Part shown: positions 3,703-48,125 of the stretch, in pieces
Layout of the letters: every line of letters begins with the position of its first letter
Position numbering within the stretch: the first letter of the stretch is position 1
Source of the DNA: a virus
Virus record (IMG/VR): IMGVR_UViG_3300028590_000018
Span: 1-57,403 of that record
DNA: 57,403 nucleotides
Direction: 5' to 3' (one strand)
Translations under genes and position numbers: made by a program
The notes under the pieces: generated by a model
What the model saw: the letters and a program-made list of their open reading frames with translations, nothing else
Told to the model about the DNA's origin: nothing
The model's database searches: none

Positions 3703-4224
3703 GATGATGAAACCGGTCGGTCTGACTAATTTCGGTTTGCTGGAAATGAGCCGGGCAAACCGGACGTATCGAACACTATGGTCGGATTGTGTTGCCATGC
3801 AGATGATTTCCTCATCCCGGTGACGCATCATCCGAAACATGCACGCTAGCTACATATTTGCCACTGATTAACATGGAATCGTTACCTACCCAATGAAATG
3901 TTAAACACGCGGAATCCTAGGCGCGCCAGCCTGCGCGGACTATCATCCATAGTCACGGTTGAATGGCGAACTACCTTCGGCCAGTTGATAACTGAATAGT
4001 CACGGTGTGACGGCCTAGACGCAGGCCGAGGCATCGCCGCGTTGAAGAAACAGCGCGGACCCCCGCCAGCAACGGCTTCGCTCATTTTGTCGGCGGCATG
4101 TGGGAGCATCCGTAGAGTTGATAGCCATTGGTACGCGGGGGATACCGAACATGAGTTTTGTCGAACCACTAGCGGGATCTGTCGGGGCTGACCGCAGCGG
4201 CGCGATGAGGAGGGATTGTGCGCC
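3703..4224. other. Intergenic stretch with short repeats, no gene supported
   Basis: I see no convincing gene here apart from the open extension of the repressor remnant. The 11-mer ATAGTCACGGT occurs at 3949-3959 and 3996-4006, and the second copy is part of a perfect inverted repeat GTCAC-GGT-GTGAC (3999-4011). These could be operator sites for the downstream gene at 4225. A minus-strand open frame over 3882-4226 lacks any motif and is not called. Confidence 0.4.
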
Positions 4225-13671: not shown

Positions 13672-13979
13672 AGAACGAACCCTTGTGGCAGAACGTCACA
13701 TCCGTCAATTCCGCCCCGCTGTCGCAGCTCTACAGCGCTCCCGCCTACCGGGCCAGCGCAGCGGAGTCCGCCAGCTATGCGCAATCGAAATCGCAACTGC
13801 CGTGTGATGAATGCTGCGCGGTGCAGCACGAGACCCGCGGCGAGTTCGGTCCACGCATGCAGACCAAGGTGCGGCGCACGTTCAAGGGCGGTCCGAACCT
13901 CCGACTGTGCCGTCGGCACGCCAACGCTTGGCGTGAGCGCGACGAGCAGGACCTCAAGAAGCGCGGCGCCCCCTCATGA
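13668..13979 (+). CDS. Small Cys-containing early protein
   Basis: A 103-residue protein starting at a GTG coupled to the methyltransferase. The second half has CDECC and, 36 residues later, CRRHA, which could form one zinc site. The first 40 residues are Ser/Ala/Tyr-rich. Function unknown. Confidence 0.6.
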   Translation: MKNEPLWQNVTSVNSAPLSQLYSAPAYRASAAESASYAQSKSQLPCDECCAVQHETRGEFGPRMQTKVRRTFKGGPNLRLCRRHANAWRERDEQDLKKRGAPS

Positions 13980-14863
13980 CCGCCCCGTGCGTGGCGTGCG
14001 GGCGCGACGTCGGCGAGCAATGGCAGGTGTTCTCCCGCACCAGCGGCCCCTACCACCTGGTCTGTCACGGCCGGGCACACCCCAACCAGTACGCGCGTAC
14101 AGCACCAATCACCCCGGAGGAAGAGAAGATGACGGTCGAAGTGATCTGGCTGCCCGGAACCGGGTTCTCGACGGGCCCCGACATCATTTCCTCAACATTC
14201 GGTGCCGCCCTGGACCCGTACCGGTTCCAGTTCCAGTCACTCCGGTACCCGGCTGCTTACGGCAGTGCGGGGATGTCGTACGCCGAGAGCGTCCGGATCG
14301 GCAAGGCGGCGATGGTTGAAGCGATCCGCGCTACCCCCTACCGCGCGGTGATCGGGGGATACAGCCAAGGCGCCGGTATCGCCGGGGATTTGGCGGCGGA
14401 GATCGGCCAAGGATTCTGGCCCGACCTGGACGTCGTCGGCTGCGCGCTGATCGCCGACCCTGCCCGCCCACATGGTGCCGGTATGCCGGACTGGCCAACA
14501 GCTTCCGGGTACGGCATCACCGGGGAACGACCGATCGAGGGTGTGCCTACCTGGTGGGCGGCGAACGAAGGGGATCCGATCACCGCGCTGCCGTCCGGGA
14601 ATCCTCTGCGTTCCATCGCTGACCTTTCGGAGTACTACAGCCTCCGCTCGCCTGGTGACGCGATCCAGTGGATGGAGAGGCTGGCTGACCGGGCACGACG
14701 GAATCAGTGGCAACGGTGGTGGTCGATCGAGAACTGGCGCAGCTGGGGCGGAGCTGTGGCGTACGCGCGCGGGTATCTGTTCGACGGGCGCCACGGATTT
14801 GACTATGTCAATCGCGGTCACGCGCATCGACTTGCTGAGGTTGTGAACGAGGCGATGTCGTGA
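13976..14863 (+). CDS. lysB: Lysin B-like serine esterase with N-terminal extension
   Basis: A 295-residue alpha/beta hydrolase of the lysin B / cutinase / PE-PPE type, which cleaves ester links to mycolic acids in the outer envelope. The nucleophile elbow is GGYSQG with S130; a strand-turn VIWLPGTGFSTG opens the fold, and GDPITALP and GFDYVNRGHAH may hold the acid and His. A strong RBS (GGAGGAAGAG) precedes an in-frame ATG at 14129, so a 244-residue form without the first 51 residues (which hold CVACG) is likely. Its place among early genes, far from the endolysin at 46392, is unusual. Mycolate substrate is inferred from the family. Confidence 0.75.
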   Translation: MTAPCVACGRDVGEQWQVFSRTSGPYHLVCHGRAHPNQYARTAPITPEEEKMTVEVIWLPGTGFSTGPDIISSTFGAALDPYRFQFQSLRYPAAYGSAGMSYAESVRIGKAAMVEAIRATPYRAVIGGYSQGAGIAGDLAAEIGQGFWPDLDVVGCALIADPARPHGAGMPDWPTASGYGITGERPIEGVPTWWAANEGDPITALPSGNPLRSIADLSEYYSLRSPGDAIQWMERLADRARRNQWQRWWSIENWRSWGGAVAYARGYLFDGRHGFDYVNRGHAHRLAEVVNEAMS

Positions 14864-15069
14864 TGGTTGCTGGCGACACTCATCTATGTGACATGGGCGC
14901 TATTGCGATGTCACGAATTGCGTTGTTACGCAGGGGAATCGCCGACCAATGGGTTGGTTTGCTGATCGGAAACGGCGTAGAATCAGAGACGGCCCCAGGG
15001 CCGGTGCGTCAACACCGGGACTCCCCAGGGCCTACCCGCCTTCCGCACTACCGGAAAGGGGCCTCATGA
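14860..15069 (+). CDS. Doubtful 69-residue frame over the replication promoter
   Basis: The frame starts at a GTG coupled to the esterase stop and ends in ATGA with the next gene, like its neighbours. The protein has no clear domain, and the second half lies over a promoter and a hairpin-rich leader (14954-15060). It may be a gene or only an open frame. Confidence 0.3.
   Translation: MMVAGDTHLCDMGAIAMSRIALLRRGIADQWVGLLIGNGVESETAPGPVRQHRDSPGPTRLPHYRKGAS
14954..15018 (+). promoter_or_regulatory. Replication operon promoter and structured leader
   Basis: TTGGTT (14954-14959), an 18-base spacer and TAGAAT (14978-14983) form a good promoter. The leader that follows contains GGCCC-CA-GGGCC (14991-15002) and CCGGTG-CGTCAA-CACCGG (15001-15018), and CCCCAGGGCC is repeated at 15023-15032. 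The first gene after it starts at 15066 with GGAAAGGGG upstream. Confidence 0.5.
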
Positions 15070-15362
15070 GCATAGCTATGCCTAGGGACTCTTCGCCCGC
15101 CGATCCGACGATTGGCTTCTCCGAGCATCGCACCTATCTGGTCGACATGCTCGATTCGATTCGCCGCCAAGAGCAGAACGTTGCCGAGAGCAAGGCGCAC
15201 TATCTGCTGCTCGCCGTCGAGAACGGCATGGCGATCTCCGATATCGCTGAGGCTGTCGGCATGTCGCCGTCCGGTGTGCGCGATGTGGTACGCCGCGCCA
15301 AGGCCAGTCCGCCCTATCTCGGTTCCGGCGACGCTGCCGGGCGACTCCCGGAGGTGATGTGA
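15066..15362 (+). CDS. Helix-turn-helix protein of the replication operon
   Basis: A 98-residue protein. A helical first half (HRTYLVDMLDSIRRQEQNVA) leads to a helix-turn-helix (ENGMAISDIAEAVGMSPSGV then RDVVRRAK), like the region 4 fold of sigma factors and resolvase tails. It is the first clear gene after the 14954 promoter and overlaps the replication initiator. It could regulate this operon; that is inferred. Confidence 0.7.
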   Translation: MSIAMPRDSSPADPTIGFSEHRTYLVDMLDSIRRQEQNVAESKAHYLLLAVENGMAISDIAEAVGMSPSGVRDVVRRAKASPPYLGSGDAAGRLPEVM

Positions 15363-16252
15363 GTTATCAGGCGAGCGAGTGGGCGTGTCGAGCGGCGCGG
15401 ACCGGTAGCAGTTCTGCCAAGAGCGTCCTCATGGTGATGGCCGAGGTTGCCGATCCGGTGGGGTGCGGGGTGCGGCTGTCTCAGAAGTCGATCGCTGAGC
15501 GGTCGGAGCTGACCGAACGCACTGTGCGCCGGGCGTGGGTCCTGTTGGAGGAGAAGGGGTTTATTCGGCGCGGCGATCAGAGGTTGGTGGCGCATCTTCC
15601 CGCGAGTCATCGGCCAATCGTTTGGGACTTGGATTTGACGCTCGAGGTGGCTGCCGAACCTACCTCGCGACCGGACACAGTGTCCCCCCAGACCGGACAC
15701 TCTGACCCCTCAGACCGGACAGAGATTCCCCCCTGTGCGGACACAGAGTCCCCTCACCCCCGGACAGAAAGTCCGGTCACCACCGGACAGGATGTCCCCT
15801 CACCCCCGGACACAGTGTCCGACAAAGCGTCATTAGAACCGTCCTTAGAACCGTCAGTTGAACCGTCCTCTTTTTCTTCGCCGAAAACGGCGAAGCGCAG
15901 ACGCAAACCAGAGACCGCCCTCCCTGACTCCTGGCGACCTAACGACTCGCACAACAAGCTCGCCCGCGAACTCGGACTGTCAACCGAAGAGGCGCGGTTT
16001 GAACTCGACCAGTTCCGCGACCACGCCCAGCAGAACGACCGCCGCTGCCGCGACTGGGACGCGGCATTCCGCAACTGGTTGCGCATCGCCGCCAAACGCA
16101 ACAACGGCAATCGTCGCCGCCCCGCCCGCGCCGCGACCATCGCCGCCGCCGAGGCAACCAAGCACAGCCCCGACCCAGAACTGATGAGGCGCGCATGGCC
16201 CTCTCAGAACCAGCCCGCGCAACTGCGCGCCATCCCGGGAGGATTGGCATGA
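15359..16252 (+). CDS. Replication initiator with internal iteron origin
   Basis: A 297-residue protein. The N-terminal domain (about 20-85) is a winged helix (RLSQKSIAERSELTERTVRR, then AWVLLEEKGFIRRG). A low-complexity Pro/Ser/Thr linker (about 100-175) is encoded by seven DNA iterons. The C-terminal domain (about 190-250) resembles DnaD/DnaT-like C-terminal domains (KLARELGLSTEEARFELDQF, then CRDWDAAFRNWLRI), which contact the helicase side. The layout matches lambda O, where the initiator gene contains its own origin. GTG start coupled to the previous gene. It precedes a helicase-accessory gene and a DnaB-like helicase. Confidence 0.85.
   Translation: MSYQASEWACRAARTGSSSAKSVLMVMAEVADPVGCGVRLSQKSIAERSELTERTVRRAWVLLEEKGFIRRGDQRLVAHLPASHRPIVWDLDLTLEVAAEPTSRPDTVSPQTGHSDPSDRTEIPPCADTESPHPRTESPVTTGQDVPSPPDTVSDKASLEPSLEPSVEPSSFSSPKTAKRRRKPETALPDSWRPNDSHNKLARELGLSTEEARFELDQFRDHAQQNDRRCRDWDAAFRNWLRIAAKRNNGNRRRPARAATIAAAEATKHSPDPELMRRAWPSQNQPAQLRAIPGGLA
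15671..15895. other. Candidate origin: seven iterons, repeats and a hairpin
   Basis: Seven copies of a 15-mer related to CCGGACACAGTGTCC start at 15671, 15693, 15715, 15737, 15760, 15783 and 15806, so the period is 22-23 bases, about two helical turns. The first and last copies are identical and palindromic in the centre (GGACAC-A-GTGTCC). The period is not a multiple of three for most steps, so the repeats are kept as DNA and read in all three frames. Three 12-base repeats (TTAGAACCGTCC type, 15833-15868), a pyrimidine run (CTCTTTTTCTTC) and a perfect hairpin CTTCGCCG-AAAA-CGGCGAAG (15876-15895) follow. Confidence 0.8.
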
Positions 16253-16486: not shown

Positions 16487-17797
16487 GTGACAGACAACCA
16501 AGCCATATACGACAGCACTGCCGAACGGGCGCTGCTCGGCGCCGCGATGATGTCTCCCGAACAGACCCGCGACACCGTCCTGGCGATGCGCCCAGACGAC
16601 TGGTACACCGCAGCGTCGCAGAACCTCGCCGCAGTCATCGTCGGCATGATGTCGGCGGGCAACCCGGTAGCGCCGGACACCGTGCTCGTCGAGGCCGCCA
16701 ACCGCGGTCTGGTCCCGGCCCGGGTGAACCCGATGTTCGTGCTGTCGTGCCAAGAGAACGCCGCCCTGCCGGAATCGGTGAGCTTCCACGCCGAGCGGAT
16801 CAAGGGCCTCGCCGCGATGCGGCAACTCAACTCCGCCGCGATGCGGCTGACGCAGCGCACGAACTCGGCATGGGAGACCGGCGTCGACCGCGTCGACATC
16901 GACATCCACATCCGGGAAATGCGCCGCGCTCTAGACGAGGCCGAGCAGACCGCCACCGCGCTCGACTACCGCCCGCCCGTGGGGATCTCCCAGTACCTGG
17001 ACTCGATCAATGAAGAGCACGACTGGCTGGTGCCGGGCTTGCTCGAGCGCATGGATCGGATCGTCCTGACCGGCGCGGAGGGCACAGGAAAGTCTTACCT
17101 GTGCCGTCAGGCCGCGTGCACTCTTGCCGCCGGTTTGCACCCGTTCACATCGTCGCTGCTGGGGTCTGGCAACTATCAGGCACGCGTGCTCTACATGGAC
17201 TGCGAGAACTCGCCCCAGCAGTCCGCCCGCCAGTTCAAGTCCATGCTTGGGATCGTCGACCAGCGCCGCCACAACATGGGTTTGTCGCCGATGGACTGGA
17301 GTGAATGGATGTCGCTCGAGGTCCGGCCTGCCGGGATGGACCTGCTGTCCGGAGCCGATGTCGTGCAGCTGGAACGGTCGATCAACGCGTTCGCCCCGGA
17401 CCTGGTGGTGCTGGGGCCGCTGTACAAGCTGCACCACGAGAACCCGAACGAGGAGAAACCCGCCCGCGAGATCGCATGGATTCTCGACGGACTGCGTGAG
17501 CGGTACAAGTTCGCGCTGCTCACCGAGGCGCACGCCGGTAAATCGACCACCAGCGACGGCCGCCGCAACATGGCACCGATCGGGTCGTCGGTGTGGCTGC
17601 GCTGGCCGGAGTTCGGGTTCGGATTGCGGCGTTCAGAGAACGACACCAGCAAGGGCCGCGCCCAACTGGTGGACATCGTGTCCTGGCGCGGCAGCCGAGA
17701 AGAACGGCAGTGGCCCAGCCAACTCCAGCACTCCCACATTCTTCCGTGGATGCCTGCGGACCCCGCCTACTACGACGACGCCAGGTCGACCGCATGA
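16487..17797 (+). CDS. DnaB/RepA-like replicative helicase
   Basis: A 436-residue ATPase. The N-terminal 110 residues resemble the DnaB N-terminal domain (STAERALLGAAMMSPEQTRD). The RecA-like core starts near 170, with Walker A GAEGTGKS (196-203), a Walker B-like strand LVVLGPLYK and a downstream EAHAGK. It probably unwinds phage DNA at the 15671-15895 origin. It follows the initiator and the accessory gene. The C-terminal ATPase is closer to the RepA/AAA_25 type than to standard DnaB, judged by eye. Confidence 0.85.
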   Translation: MTDNQAIYDSTAERALLGAAMMSPEQTRDTVLAMRPDDWYTAASQNLAAVIVGMMSAGNPVAPDTVLVEAANRGLVPARVNPMFVLSCQENAALPESVSFHAERIKGLAAMRQLNSAAMRLTQRTNSAWETGVDRVDIDIHIREMRRALDEAEQTATALDYRPPVGISQYLDSINEEHDWLVPGLLERMDRIVLTGAEGTGKSYLCRQAACTLAAGLHPFTSSLLGSGNYQARVLYMDCENSPQQSARQFKSMLGIVDQRRHNMGLSPMDWSEWMSLEVRPAGMDLLSGADVVQLERSINAFAPDLVVLGPLYKLHHENPNEEKPAREIAWILDGLRERYKFALLTEAHAGKSTTSDGRRNMAPIGSSVWLRWPEFGFGLRRSENDTSKGRAQLVDIVSWRGSREERQWPSQLQHSHILPWMPADPAYYDDARSTA

Positions 17798-45801: not shown

Positions 45802-46395
45802 GTGGGCAAGATCTGGCGTCTCGAGGACATCGACCCGGACGATCCGGAGGAACGATTCCTCCCTGTGTTGCAGTGCATCCCGATCGGATTCGGGGCGGAC
45901 GCGGGCGGGCGGAACCGGATCATCTGGCCGGAGCAGATCGCCCGCGCGGTCTCGAAGCACCTGACCGAAGCGGGCGTGCCCCCGATTGATCCGGAAGCGG
46001 CGACGGTCGAGTTCCGTCCGCCGTATCGCGGGGAGCAGTCGCGATTCAACGCGATGGGTGGATGGGTTCCCAAGGGGTCCGACCCCGCACCGGATCCGGT
46101 GGTGATCCAGGATCCGGCGTCGATGACGGTGCGGGAACGTGAAGCTGTGGTCGAACGGCTCCGCTATCAGGGCTACAAGATCAACGAACCCGACCCGGAG
46201 CAGCCGACCGCGAAGATCGTCGACGCCATCGACGAACCGCCACGGTTCGACCCGAGCGCGCACACCGTGACCGAGGTGAACACCTACCTGCGCGACCTCG
46301 ACGACGAGGTGGAGAAGCGGCGAGTGCTCTACACCGAACGTAAAGGCCAGGCACGCAACGGAATCCTTAAAAGGCATCAGGGGGACGGCCGATGA
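45802..46395 (+). CDS. Minor tail protein
   Basis: A 197-residue acidic protein following the hub gene. It starts at GTG 45802 after AGGAGG. Helical segments (TEVNTYLRDLDDEVEKRRVL) near the end and a Pro-rich centre are seen. A role in the baseplate is inferred from position. Confidence 0.65.
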   Translation: MGKIWRLEDIDPDDPEERFLPVLQCIPIGFGADAGGRNRIIWPEQIARAVSKHLTEAGVPPIDPEAATVEFRPPYRGEQSRFNAMGGWVPKGSDPAPDPVVIQDPASMTVREREAVVERLRYQGYKINEPDPEQPTAKIVDAIDEPPRFDPSAHTVTEVNTYLRDLDDEVEKRRVLYTERKGQARNGILKRHQGDGR

Positions 46396-48125
46396 CCACA
46401 GCAGTAGATTTCGCTGCTCGACTTGTCGATCCGACCGCGATCCGGGATGCAGGCCACGGCGCAGTCATCGTCTATGTCGCACCCAGCAGACCCGGCAGCA
46501 ATTTTGGCGCGAAACCGATCACGAAGCTGTACGCCGACCAACTGCGCGCGGCCGGACTAGAGATCGCGTCGGTATGGCAGTACGGCAAGCCCGGTAATCC
46601 GCAGGCGCCATCGGACTGGACCACTGGCTACGACGGCGGCCAGCGAATGGGAATCGAAGCAGCCGAGCGGCATCGCGCCGCGGGCGGCCCCGATAAGGCG
46701 CCGATCTTTTTCGCGGTCGACGAAGACATCTCACTCGAAGACTGGAACAACCAGGCCGTCGATTTCTTCCGCGGCATCAACAACGCGATCGGCGCGGAAC
46801 GCACCGGCATCTACGGGCATTCGCGGGCGTGCGCTTGGGCCGCACAGGACGCTGTCCTCGGTTCGGCCGGCGGCGGGAAGTACTGGGCATGGCAGACGCG
46901 TGCCTGGTCCGGGGGTGAAATCGCACCCGAGGCCGTTCTCTACCAGCGGGTTATCGACACCCCGACAAGTCCTGGGCCGCTGATCGACGGAAGCGCCGTC
47001 GACGTCAACGACGTCCTCGCGCCGCTGTACGGGCAGTGGTCCCACTACGAACAACCTGAGGAATCGCCGATGGCCCGACCTGAATACACCGAACTCGATC
47101 GCATGGGGAACTCCCGGTCGGAGCGCTGGGGTGCGCGTATCACCAACTTCTTGCTGCATACCCAGGAAGGCGACGGCACGGCCGAATCGCTGTCGGCGTA
47201 TCTGAACAATCCGGAGAACGGCGCGTCGTATCACTACACGGTGCGCGGCGGGATCGTGTGCGCCGTCGTCGATACGGATTACGCGTCGTGGTCGGTCCTG
47301 GACGCTAACGCGCAGACCATCAACCTCTGCTTCGCTGGCAGCCGCGCGTCGTGGTCACGCGAGGATTGGCTCGAGATCCGCGACGACCTCCGGATCGCGG
47401 CGTGGCTGGCTGTTCAGGACGCGAAAAAGTACAGCTTCGCCACCGATGTGATCGCCCCGCCATACGAACGGCGCGACGGCATCTCCGACCACAAATATGT
47501 GACGCAGTGCCTCGGCATCGGCACGCACACCGACGTCGGCCCTAACTTCCCATGGGATGTCCTCGCTGCGGATGTCGCCGAATTCGCAGCTGGCGCAACG
47601 CCACCTCCGCCACCTAACGCCATCAACGATGTCGAAGCCGCGAATCCATGGCTGGGCAAGCGGATCACCAACGGTGAGGCTGCAACCCCTGACGGTGTCG
47701 GACGATACGCCGAATACGAGCACGGCCACATCTTCTGGAGCCCATCCACAGGTGCGCAAGCCATCCCGGCATCGCTGTTCGGCAAGTATGCCGCGCTCGA
47801 TTGGGAAGCGGGCACACTCGGCTACCCGATCACCGCAGCCACACAGCTCGAGCACGGTGAAGTCCAGGGGTTCCAGCGCGGTGCAATCTACCGCCAAGAC
47901 GTCCGCGACCCGTTCTGGCTGCACGGCGCGATCCGCGAACGATGGAACCGGACCGGTTACGAGAACGGTCCTTTCGGCTGGCCCGTCTCCGACGAGGAAC
48001 AACTGTCCGGCGGTGAAGTGCGGCAGCGGTTCGAGCATGGGCAGATCGTCTGGCCCGGCCGCCGCGACACCGTCGCCCTGCTCGACGCAGACGGCCCCGA
48101 TACCCCTGTCGCAGACCACGATTGA
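46392..48125 (+). CDS. lysA: Endolysin: DUF1906 domain, amidase and LGFP repeats
   Basis: A 577-residue endolysin with three parts. Residues 4-215 are a DUF1906 (Rv2525c-like) glycoside hydrolase-like domain (VDFAARLV, PIFFAVDEDI, WAWQTRAW). Residues 227-400 are an N-acetylmuramoyl-L-alanine amidase (FLLHTQEG, ASYHYTVRGG, CLGIGTHTDVGPNFPWD). From 420 to 560 LGFP-type repeats bind the cell wall (GTLGYPIT, GPFGWPVS). An in-frame ATG at 47070 with GAGGAA upstream could give a shorter amidase-LGFP form. Holin-like genes follow. Confidence 0.92.
   Translation: MTTAVDFAARLVDPTAIRDAGHGAVIVYVAPSRPGSNFGAKPITKLYADQLRAAGLEIASVWQYGKPGNPQAPSDWTTGYDGGQRMGIEAAERHRAAGGPDKAPIFFAVDEDISLEDWNNQAVDFFRGINNAIGAERTGIYGHSRACAWAAQDAVLGSAGGGKYWAWQTRAWSGGEIAPEAVLYQRVIDTPTSPGPLIDGSAVDVNDVLAPLYGQWSHYEQPEESPMARPEYTELDRMGNSRSERWGARITNFLLHTQEGDGTAESLSAYLNNPENGASYHYTVRGGIVCAVVDTDYASWSVLDANAQTINLCFAGSRASWSREDWLEIRDDLRIAAWLAVQDAKKYSFATDVIAPPYERRDGISDHKYVTQCLGIGTHTDVGPNFPWDVLAADVAEFAAGATPPPPPNAINDVEAANPWLGKRITNGEAATPDGVGRYAEYEHGHIFWSPSTGAQAIPASLFGKYAALDWEAGTLGYPITAATQLEHGEVQGFQRGAIYRQDVRDPFWLHGAIRERWNRTGYENGPFGWPVSDEEQLSGGEVRQRFEHGQIVWPGRRDTVALLDADGPDTPVADHD

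Follow-up and report, generated by a model that had tools for sequence, protein, structure and literature searches.

The window analysed here is the whole of IMG/VR virus record IMGVR_UViG_3300028590_000018 (57,403 nucleotides), and a plus-strand gene at 15359–16252 (297 aa, GTG start) encodes an O-like replication initiation protein. In profile searches the top family for this protein is PHROG_1032 ‘replication initiation protein’ (1.8e-28, residues 1–260), with further matches to PHROG_391 ‘O-like’ (4.2e-9), PHROG_678 (2.5e-5), PHROG_345 (8e-4) and PHROG_270, all of them replication initiation or O-like families. An N-terminal winged-helix domain (aa 1–95, 15359–15643, plus strand; Pfam HTH_36, 8.5e-6), the predicted iteron binder, has its recognition helix around aa 53–66 (RTVRR), and its nearest solved relatives by profile search are CRP-type HTH domains. 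It is followed by a linker that is predicted to be disordered and carries the repeat region (aa 96–181, 15644–15901, plus strand), and by a C-terminal helical domain (aa 187–250, 15917–16108, plus strand; predicted helical over aa 196–252). An AlphaFold model made from a six-sequence alignment (mean pLDDT 63) gives confident folds at about aa 11–90 and aa 185–250, with pLDDT mostly 74–90 in the N-domain, 33–42 over most of the linker and 75–87 in the C-terminal domain. Searched against the PDB with Foldseek, the model found only wHTH proteins among its top matches, none below E 0.001, and a PDB sequence search with the C-terminal region returned no match.

The C-terminal domain is common to many other phage proteins. 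It matches PHROG_3992 ‘primosomal protein’ (1.5e-6) and is probably the part of the initiator that contacts the helicase or primosome. An earlier note on this DNA had placed the repeats between a winged-helix N-terminus and a DnaD-like C-terminus; the winged helix and the disordered linker are borne out, and a DnaD/DnaT-like identity is weakly suggested by a match to Pfam DnaT (1.9e-4, 21.6 bits) that falls under the curated cut-off of 25.

One small ORF separates the initiator from its partner gene at 16487–17797 (plus strand), a DnaB-like/RepA-type replicative helicase (Pfam AAA_25, 4.2e-28; DnaB N-terminal, 8.7e-8) that shares 48–50% identity with DnaB-like helicases annotated in Gordonia phages. 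In Gordonia phages Catfish, Gsput1 and Huffy, which have the closest helicases, no obvious homologue of the initiator lies upstream of the helicase gene, and helicase and initiator seem to have been exchanged independently among Gordonia phages. A different type of gene stands upstream of the same helicase in Huffy (gene 53, L359:2106–2954); it contains a 22-bp repeat, GGACCGGCG, and is perhaps another embedded origin. The record also has an integrase gene (608–1972) and a terminase that matches actinobacteriophages. On the other side of the initiator, a weak HTH ORF at 14949–15362 overlaps the start of the gene by 4 bases (GTGA), which suggests translational coupling and makes the ORF a candidate regulator of the origin gene.

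Within the linker, seven 15-bp iterons of the GGACAnnnnGTCC type lie on the plus strand: CCGGACACAGTGTCC at 15671–15685, CCGGACACTCTGACC at 15693–15707, CCGGACAGAGATTCC at 15715–15729, GCGGACACAGAGTCC at 15737–15751, CCGGACAGAAAGTCC at 15760–15774, CCGGACAGGATGTCC at 15783–15797 and CCGGACACAGTGTCC, which is also the consensus, again at 15806–15820. The seven copies have CGGACA in common without exception and differ more at the centre; the majority are partial palindromes (GGACA...TGTCC). The earlier note had described these iterons and their 22–23-base period, and a direct count together with a codon-shuffle control confirms both: a repeat-chain detector (10-mers, up to 2 mismatches, 19–25-bp steps) finds 7 copies in the gene and at most 3 in any of 15 codon-shuffled versions. 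Given that single iterons are degenerate, the signal is the ordered array and not the single site; the iteron 13-mer, with 3 mismatches allowed, has further occurrences elsewhere at about chance level. Successive spacings are 22, 22, 22, 23, 23 and 23 bp, and the seven copies consequently stand at codon offsets 0, 1, 2, 0, 2, 1 and 0, so that they are read in all three frames, as had been claimed.

Immediately 3' of the iterons is a second, three-copy array (15825–15869, plus strand) of 12-bp GAACCGTCC units with the core GAACCGTC(C/A), in which GAACC occurs at 15836, 15848 and 15860. A pyrimidine run (15866–15879, plus strand) and a perfect 8-bp hairpin, CTTCGCCG-AAAA-CGGCGAAG (15876–15895, unstranded), complete the set that the earlier note had listed after the iterons, and all of these are confirmed. 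GC content is 47% over 15821–15880 compared with 64% for the whole record, which places this stretch in the lowest 0.6% of 60-bp windows, and the array at 15825–15869 is likely, to judge by its composition and place, to be an unwinding element or a single-strand recognition element. GC skew has no clear turning point at the origin segment and is uninformative as a marker here.

The earlier note had argued that selection must act on the DNA of the repeat region and not on the peptide, and had proposed that related genes should keep the iterons while the linker varies. Both points hold in a comparison with a 71%-identical IMG/VR relative (L001), which keeps all seven iterons at identical spacing, with 84% identity in the iteron cores and 64% in the spacers. 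Conservation at the first, second and third codon positions is equal in the iteron region (0.76, 0.78 and 0.80), whereas the third position is the variable one on both sides of it (0.69, 0.84 and 0.51 in the N-domain; 0.82, 0.91 and 0.66 in the C-domain). Residues shared by the two proteins have the same codon 91% of the time in the iteron region, as against 49% in the N-domain and 63% in the C-domain. Equal conservation at three codon positions indicates selection on DNA that is blind to the reading frame.

The elements 3' of the iterons can be followed in the same relative. The pyrimidine run is near-identical there and the hairpin identical, and the 12-bp repeats have changed in concert, from GAACCGTCC here to GAAGCTTCC in every L001 copy, which could reflect either homogenisation or co-evolution with a reader. 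The hairpin was also considered as a general third origin element and was rejected, as a stem of at least 7 is, at 20%, only a little commoner in the relatives than elsewhere in the gene (13%); as part of the origin it is thus a feature of this record and L001, and not of the relatives at large.

Relatives of the N-domain are found in Gordonia phages Soos and DatBoi, Arthrobacter phages PhluffyCoco and Galaxy, Bifidobacterium phages PMBT6 and Bbif-1 and Pseudomonas phage AV001, and related phage genes carry annotations such as ‘replication initiation’ or HTH; a collection search with DatBoi as the query gave no match. The iterons of these relatives differ in sequence (GGGGTGACA, GGTGCAA, ATGACAC, GTGCAAACA) and keep the same linker position and a period of about 22–25 bp. 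In Galaxy, PhluffyCoco, DatBoi, Soos, PMBT6 and AV001 the homologous N-domain and an array of about 22 bp at that position, usually followed by GAACC repeats, are shared with the present gene, but the iterons are GGGGTGACA, GGTGCAA or ATGACAC instead of GGACA, and the C-terminal domains are mostly different. At least three chained iterons are present in 21 of the 26 initiator genes found by protein similarity. Spacings of 22 and 23 are the commonest among 62 non-redundant initiator genes, and most spacings are not multiples of three (62/77 in chains of at least 4; 116/145 in the set found through GAACC). Nor is the GGACA iteron, for which the earlier note could name no described example in this host group, unique: a DNA-only search of viral contigs for CGGACA repeated three times at 21–23 bp gave at least 120 stretches, and 30 of the 120 listed lie inside a wHTH initiator ORF on the same strand, the other 90 not.

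What many relatives have in common is the second repeat, a tandem GAACC[A/G]TCA just 3' of the iterons at steps of 10–14 bp, mostly 11 and 12. In the protein-found set, 47 motifs fall within 110 nt of the last iteron (16.4 per kb) compared with 2 elsewhere (0.11 per kb); the motif is present in 21/26 of these genes and occupies more than one reading frame in 9/26. It is not in every relative (9/30 in the iteron-found set), and it usually stands in the EPS-encoding frame, so that a degree of constraint on the peptide may be at work. When viral contigs were searched for the DNA pair GAACCRTCANNAGAACCRTCA, at least 120 stretches came up, 119 of which were examined; among the matches listed, 103/119 are in a wHTH ORF on the same strand, whereas the same pattern backwards gave 15 stretches and none in such an ORF. 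At least four iterons stand immediately upstream in 36 of 60 non-redundant genes found through GAACC, compared with 1 of 600 shuffles; the motif follows the start of the last iteron at a median distance of 33 nt. An exact scan for GAACCGTCCTTGAACCGTC hit 22 contigs, 20 of them in wHTH ORFs. The only occurrence of the GAACC pair in 794 bacterial genomes was inside a wHTH gene that has dyad GGTGCA sites, and the element is accordingly regarded as essentially phage-borne.

The 12-base repeat of the present record belongs to that component of the origin which is shared most widely, a point that the earlier note had overlooked. It is possible, and to our mind evenly balanced, that a large set of tailed phages with hosts of different phyla shares a two-part origin code, in which fast-changing, initiator-specific iterons would be joined to a slow-changing GAACC[A/G]TCA at 11–12-bp steps that serves the initiator or the helicase loader as a common single-strand or unwinding element. 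DnaA-trios and plasmid 13-mers are proposed as analogues of this second repeat. No description of the GAACC element paired with unrelated iterons was found in the open-access literature searched, and a full-text search for the motif letters gave only unrelated papers among the matches listed; the shared repeat may be new, and its novelty is provisional.

The recognition helix offers a link between initiator and iteron. Residue 57, which lies in this helix, is the N-domain position most associated with the iteron half-site: arginine is found in 21 of 29 GGACA cases and glutamine in 6 of 10 GGTG cases, in counts that ignore kinship and include a GGACA set for which the iteron itself was in part the basis of selection. 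Asparagine is found there in seven GGACA cases whose helix reads RSTLN. Covariation at residue 57 is what direct reading of the iterons by the recognition helix predicts, and the association suggests such reading; the R57/Q57 switch provides a testable specificity rule for iteron recognition.

The earlier note had likened the locus to lambda O and its origin, and the same order at similar spacing is indeed found in lambda O and in P22 gene 18, which belong to common profile families with the present gene and score 4 each in the same type of chain detector. That the lambda origin lies inside O is textbook knowledge. In phage lambda (NC_001416) mid-gene iterons at 20–24-bp steps, annotated as O-binding, are followed by an AT-rich stretch; a mid-gene origin made of iterons and an AT-rich tract, and binding of O to single-stranded DNA, are described in PMC7466680. 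Lambda differs in having four iterons of unrelated sequence, ACAAAAGA-type words without GAACC in its AT-rich tract, and replication protein P beside O where a DnaB-like helicase is found here. Salmonella phage P22 (NC_002371) is the closest match in gene layout: gene 18 encodes an O-like initiator and contains four repeats at about 20–24 bp where the rep_origin is annotated, and gene 12, directly after it, encodes a DnaB-type helicase, but the iteron is TCGGTAAAA and the second repeat is ACAAAAGACAATA, 14 bp apart. In both phages other A-rich repeats (ACAAAAGAC...) take the place that GAACC has here. Lambda O and the present initiator both match PHROG_391 and PHROG_678; lambda O and P22 gp18 match PHROG_678 and PHROG_345 strongly, and their link to the present initiator is remote and at profile level only (for gp18, through PHROG_345/678).

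The 14-bp direct repeat ACAAAAGACAATA of P22 gene 18 (L356:1489–2304) lies immediately 3' of its iterons, and lambda has the related ACAAAAGA words at that place. The initiator of Vibrio phage K75 (L360:1201–2130) combines an N-domain of the present family with a lambda-O-type C-domain (PHROG_277, 1.5e-31), and its gene carries iterons of about 21 bp together with AACAACT repeats, forming a bridge between the two groups. RepA-type mycobacteriophage prophages also have an actinobacterial initiator with an N-terminal HTH, and an origin within repA, as in lambda, has been suggested for them, although no repeated motifs were reported in the regions examined (PMC7157519); those prophages are extrachromosomal, whereas the present record has an integrase.

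What is observed at this locus is an array with its phase, selection at the DNA level, order and spacing kept across the family, covariation of helix and iteron, and co-location with a helicase gene. There is every reason to think that 15671–15895 serves a temperate phage of actinobacteria as its replication origin and lies, after the manner of lambda O and P22 gene 18, within the linker-coding part of the initiator gene itself; we infer that replication starts there. As an embedded origin it is a further case of a known kind. Another origin may lie outside the IMG/VR record, whose completeness is not stated.

Iteron-bound initiators that regulate their own synthesis are common in plasmids, and the array might instead be an operator through which the initiator, or the small upstream HTH protein whose ORF (14949–15362) overlaps the gene start, tunes or represses transcription while replication starts elsewhere. 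We consider this improbable: seven phased sites 310–460 bp into the gene, next to an AT-rich element, are the layout of the lambda and P22 origins and not that of a typical operator, and the conserved GAACC element beside the array would be left unexplained. Autoregulation could, moreover, coexist with origin function. Tandem arrays also serve as parS or packaging sites, and a gene annotated parB1 adjoins the Bbif-1 homologue; a partition (centromere-like), recombination or packaging site for another protein is nevertheless very improbable, as the array stays inside the initiator gene in dozens of relatives whose neighbours differ, its half-site type covaries with the initiator's own recognition helix, and the record carries an integrase. 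That the repeats have no function as DNA, and are owed to selection on the peptide or to slipped replication of a low-complexity linker, is hardly credible. In its favour are a disordered linker, in-frame 12-bp units whose joint change in L001 is of the kind expected from slippage or gene conversion, and a GAACC motif mostly in the EPS frame; against it, the 22/23 spacing uses three frames, conservation in the iteron region is equal at every codon position, most spacings across relatives are not multiples of 3, and GAACC is in more than one frame in 9/26 protein-found genes.

Under the origin reading, the winged-helix N-domain would bind the seven iterons, probably with one dimer to each partial palindrome. 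The iterons are about two helical turns apart, and the bound array would form a nucleoprotein complex. This complex would strain and open the AT-rich GAACC stretch immediately 3' (15821–15880); the array and its flank strongly suggest both the initiator dimers and the opening. At the GAACC repeats the initiator or a partner may then keep hold of one strand of the opened DNA, and the C-terminal domain of the initiator may recruit the phage DnaB-like helicase (16487–17797), helicase loading being the step after strand capture. The shared second repeat offers a testable route by which lambda-type initiators might open DNA. Lying inside the coding sequence of its initiator, an origin stays joined to its reader through module recombination, in keeping with the seemingly independent exchange of helicase and initiator among Gordonia phages.

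The present locus places an origin to the base pair in a group of actinobacterial phages for whose initiators ‘helix-turn-helix protein’ is mostly the sole annotation. A wHTH gene with an array of about 22 bp and GAACC repeats is a sequence signature by which origins would likewise be located in many phages of Arthrobacter, Gordonia, Bifidobacterium, Pseudomonas and uncultured hosts.

Two further features of the record were observed. A cutinase/PE-PPE-like gene at 13976–14863 (PHROG_102 ‘endolysin’) stands in the early region beside the replication genes; the second lysin-like gene (46392–48125; Rv2525c-like with LGFP repeats) is about 31 kb away. In addition, the record's 60-bp windows of highest AT content have starts that cluster at 3825–3862, downstream of the integrase gene, and this cluster could be an attachment or regulatory site.
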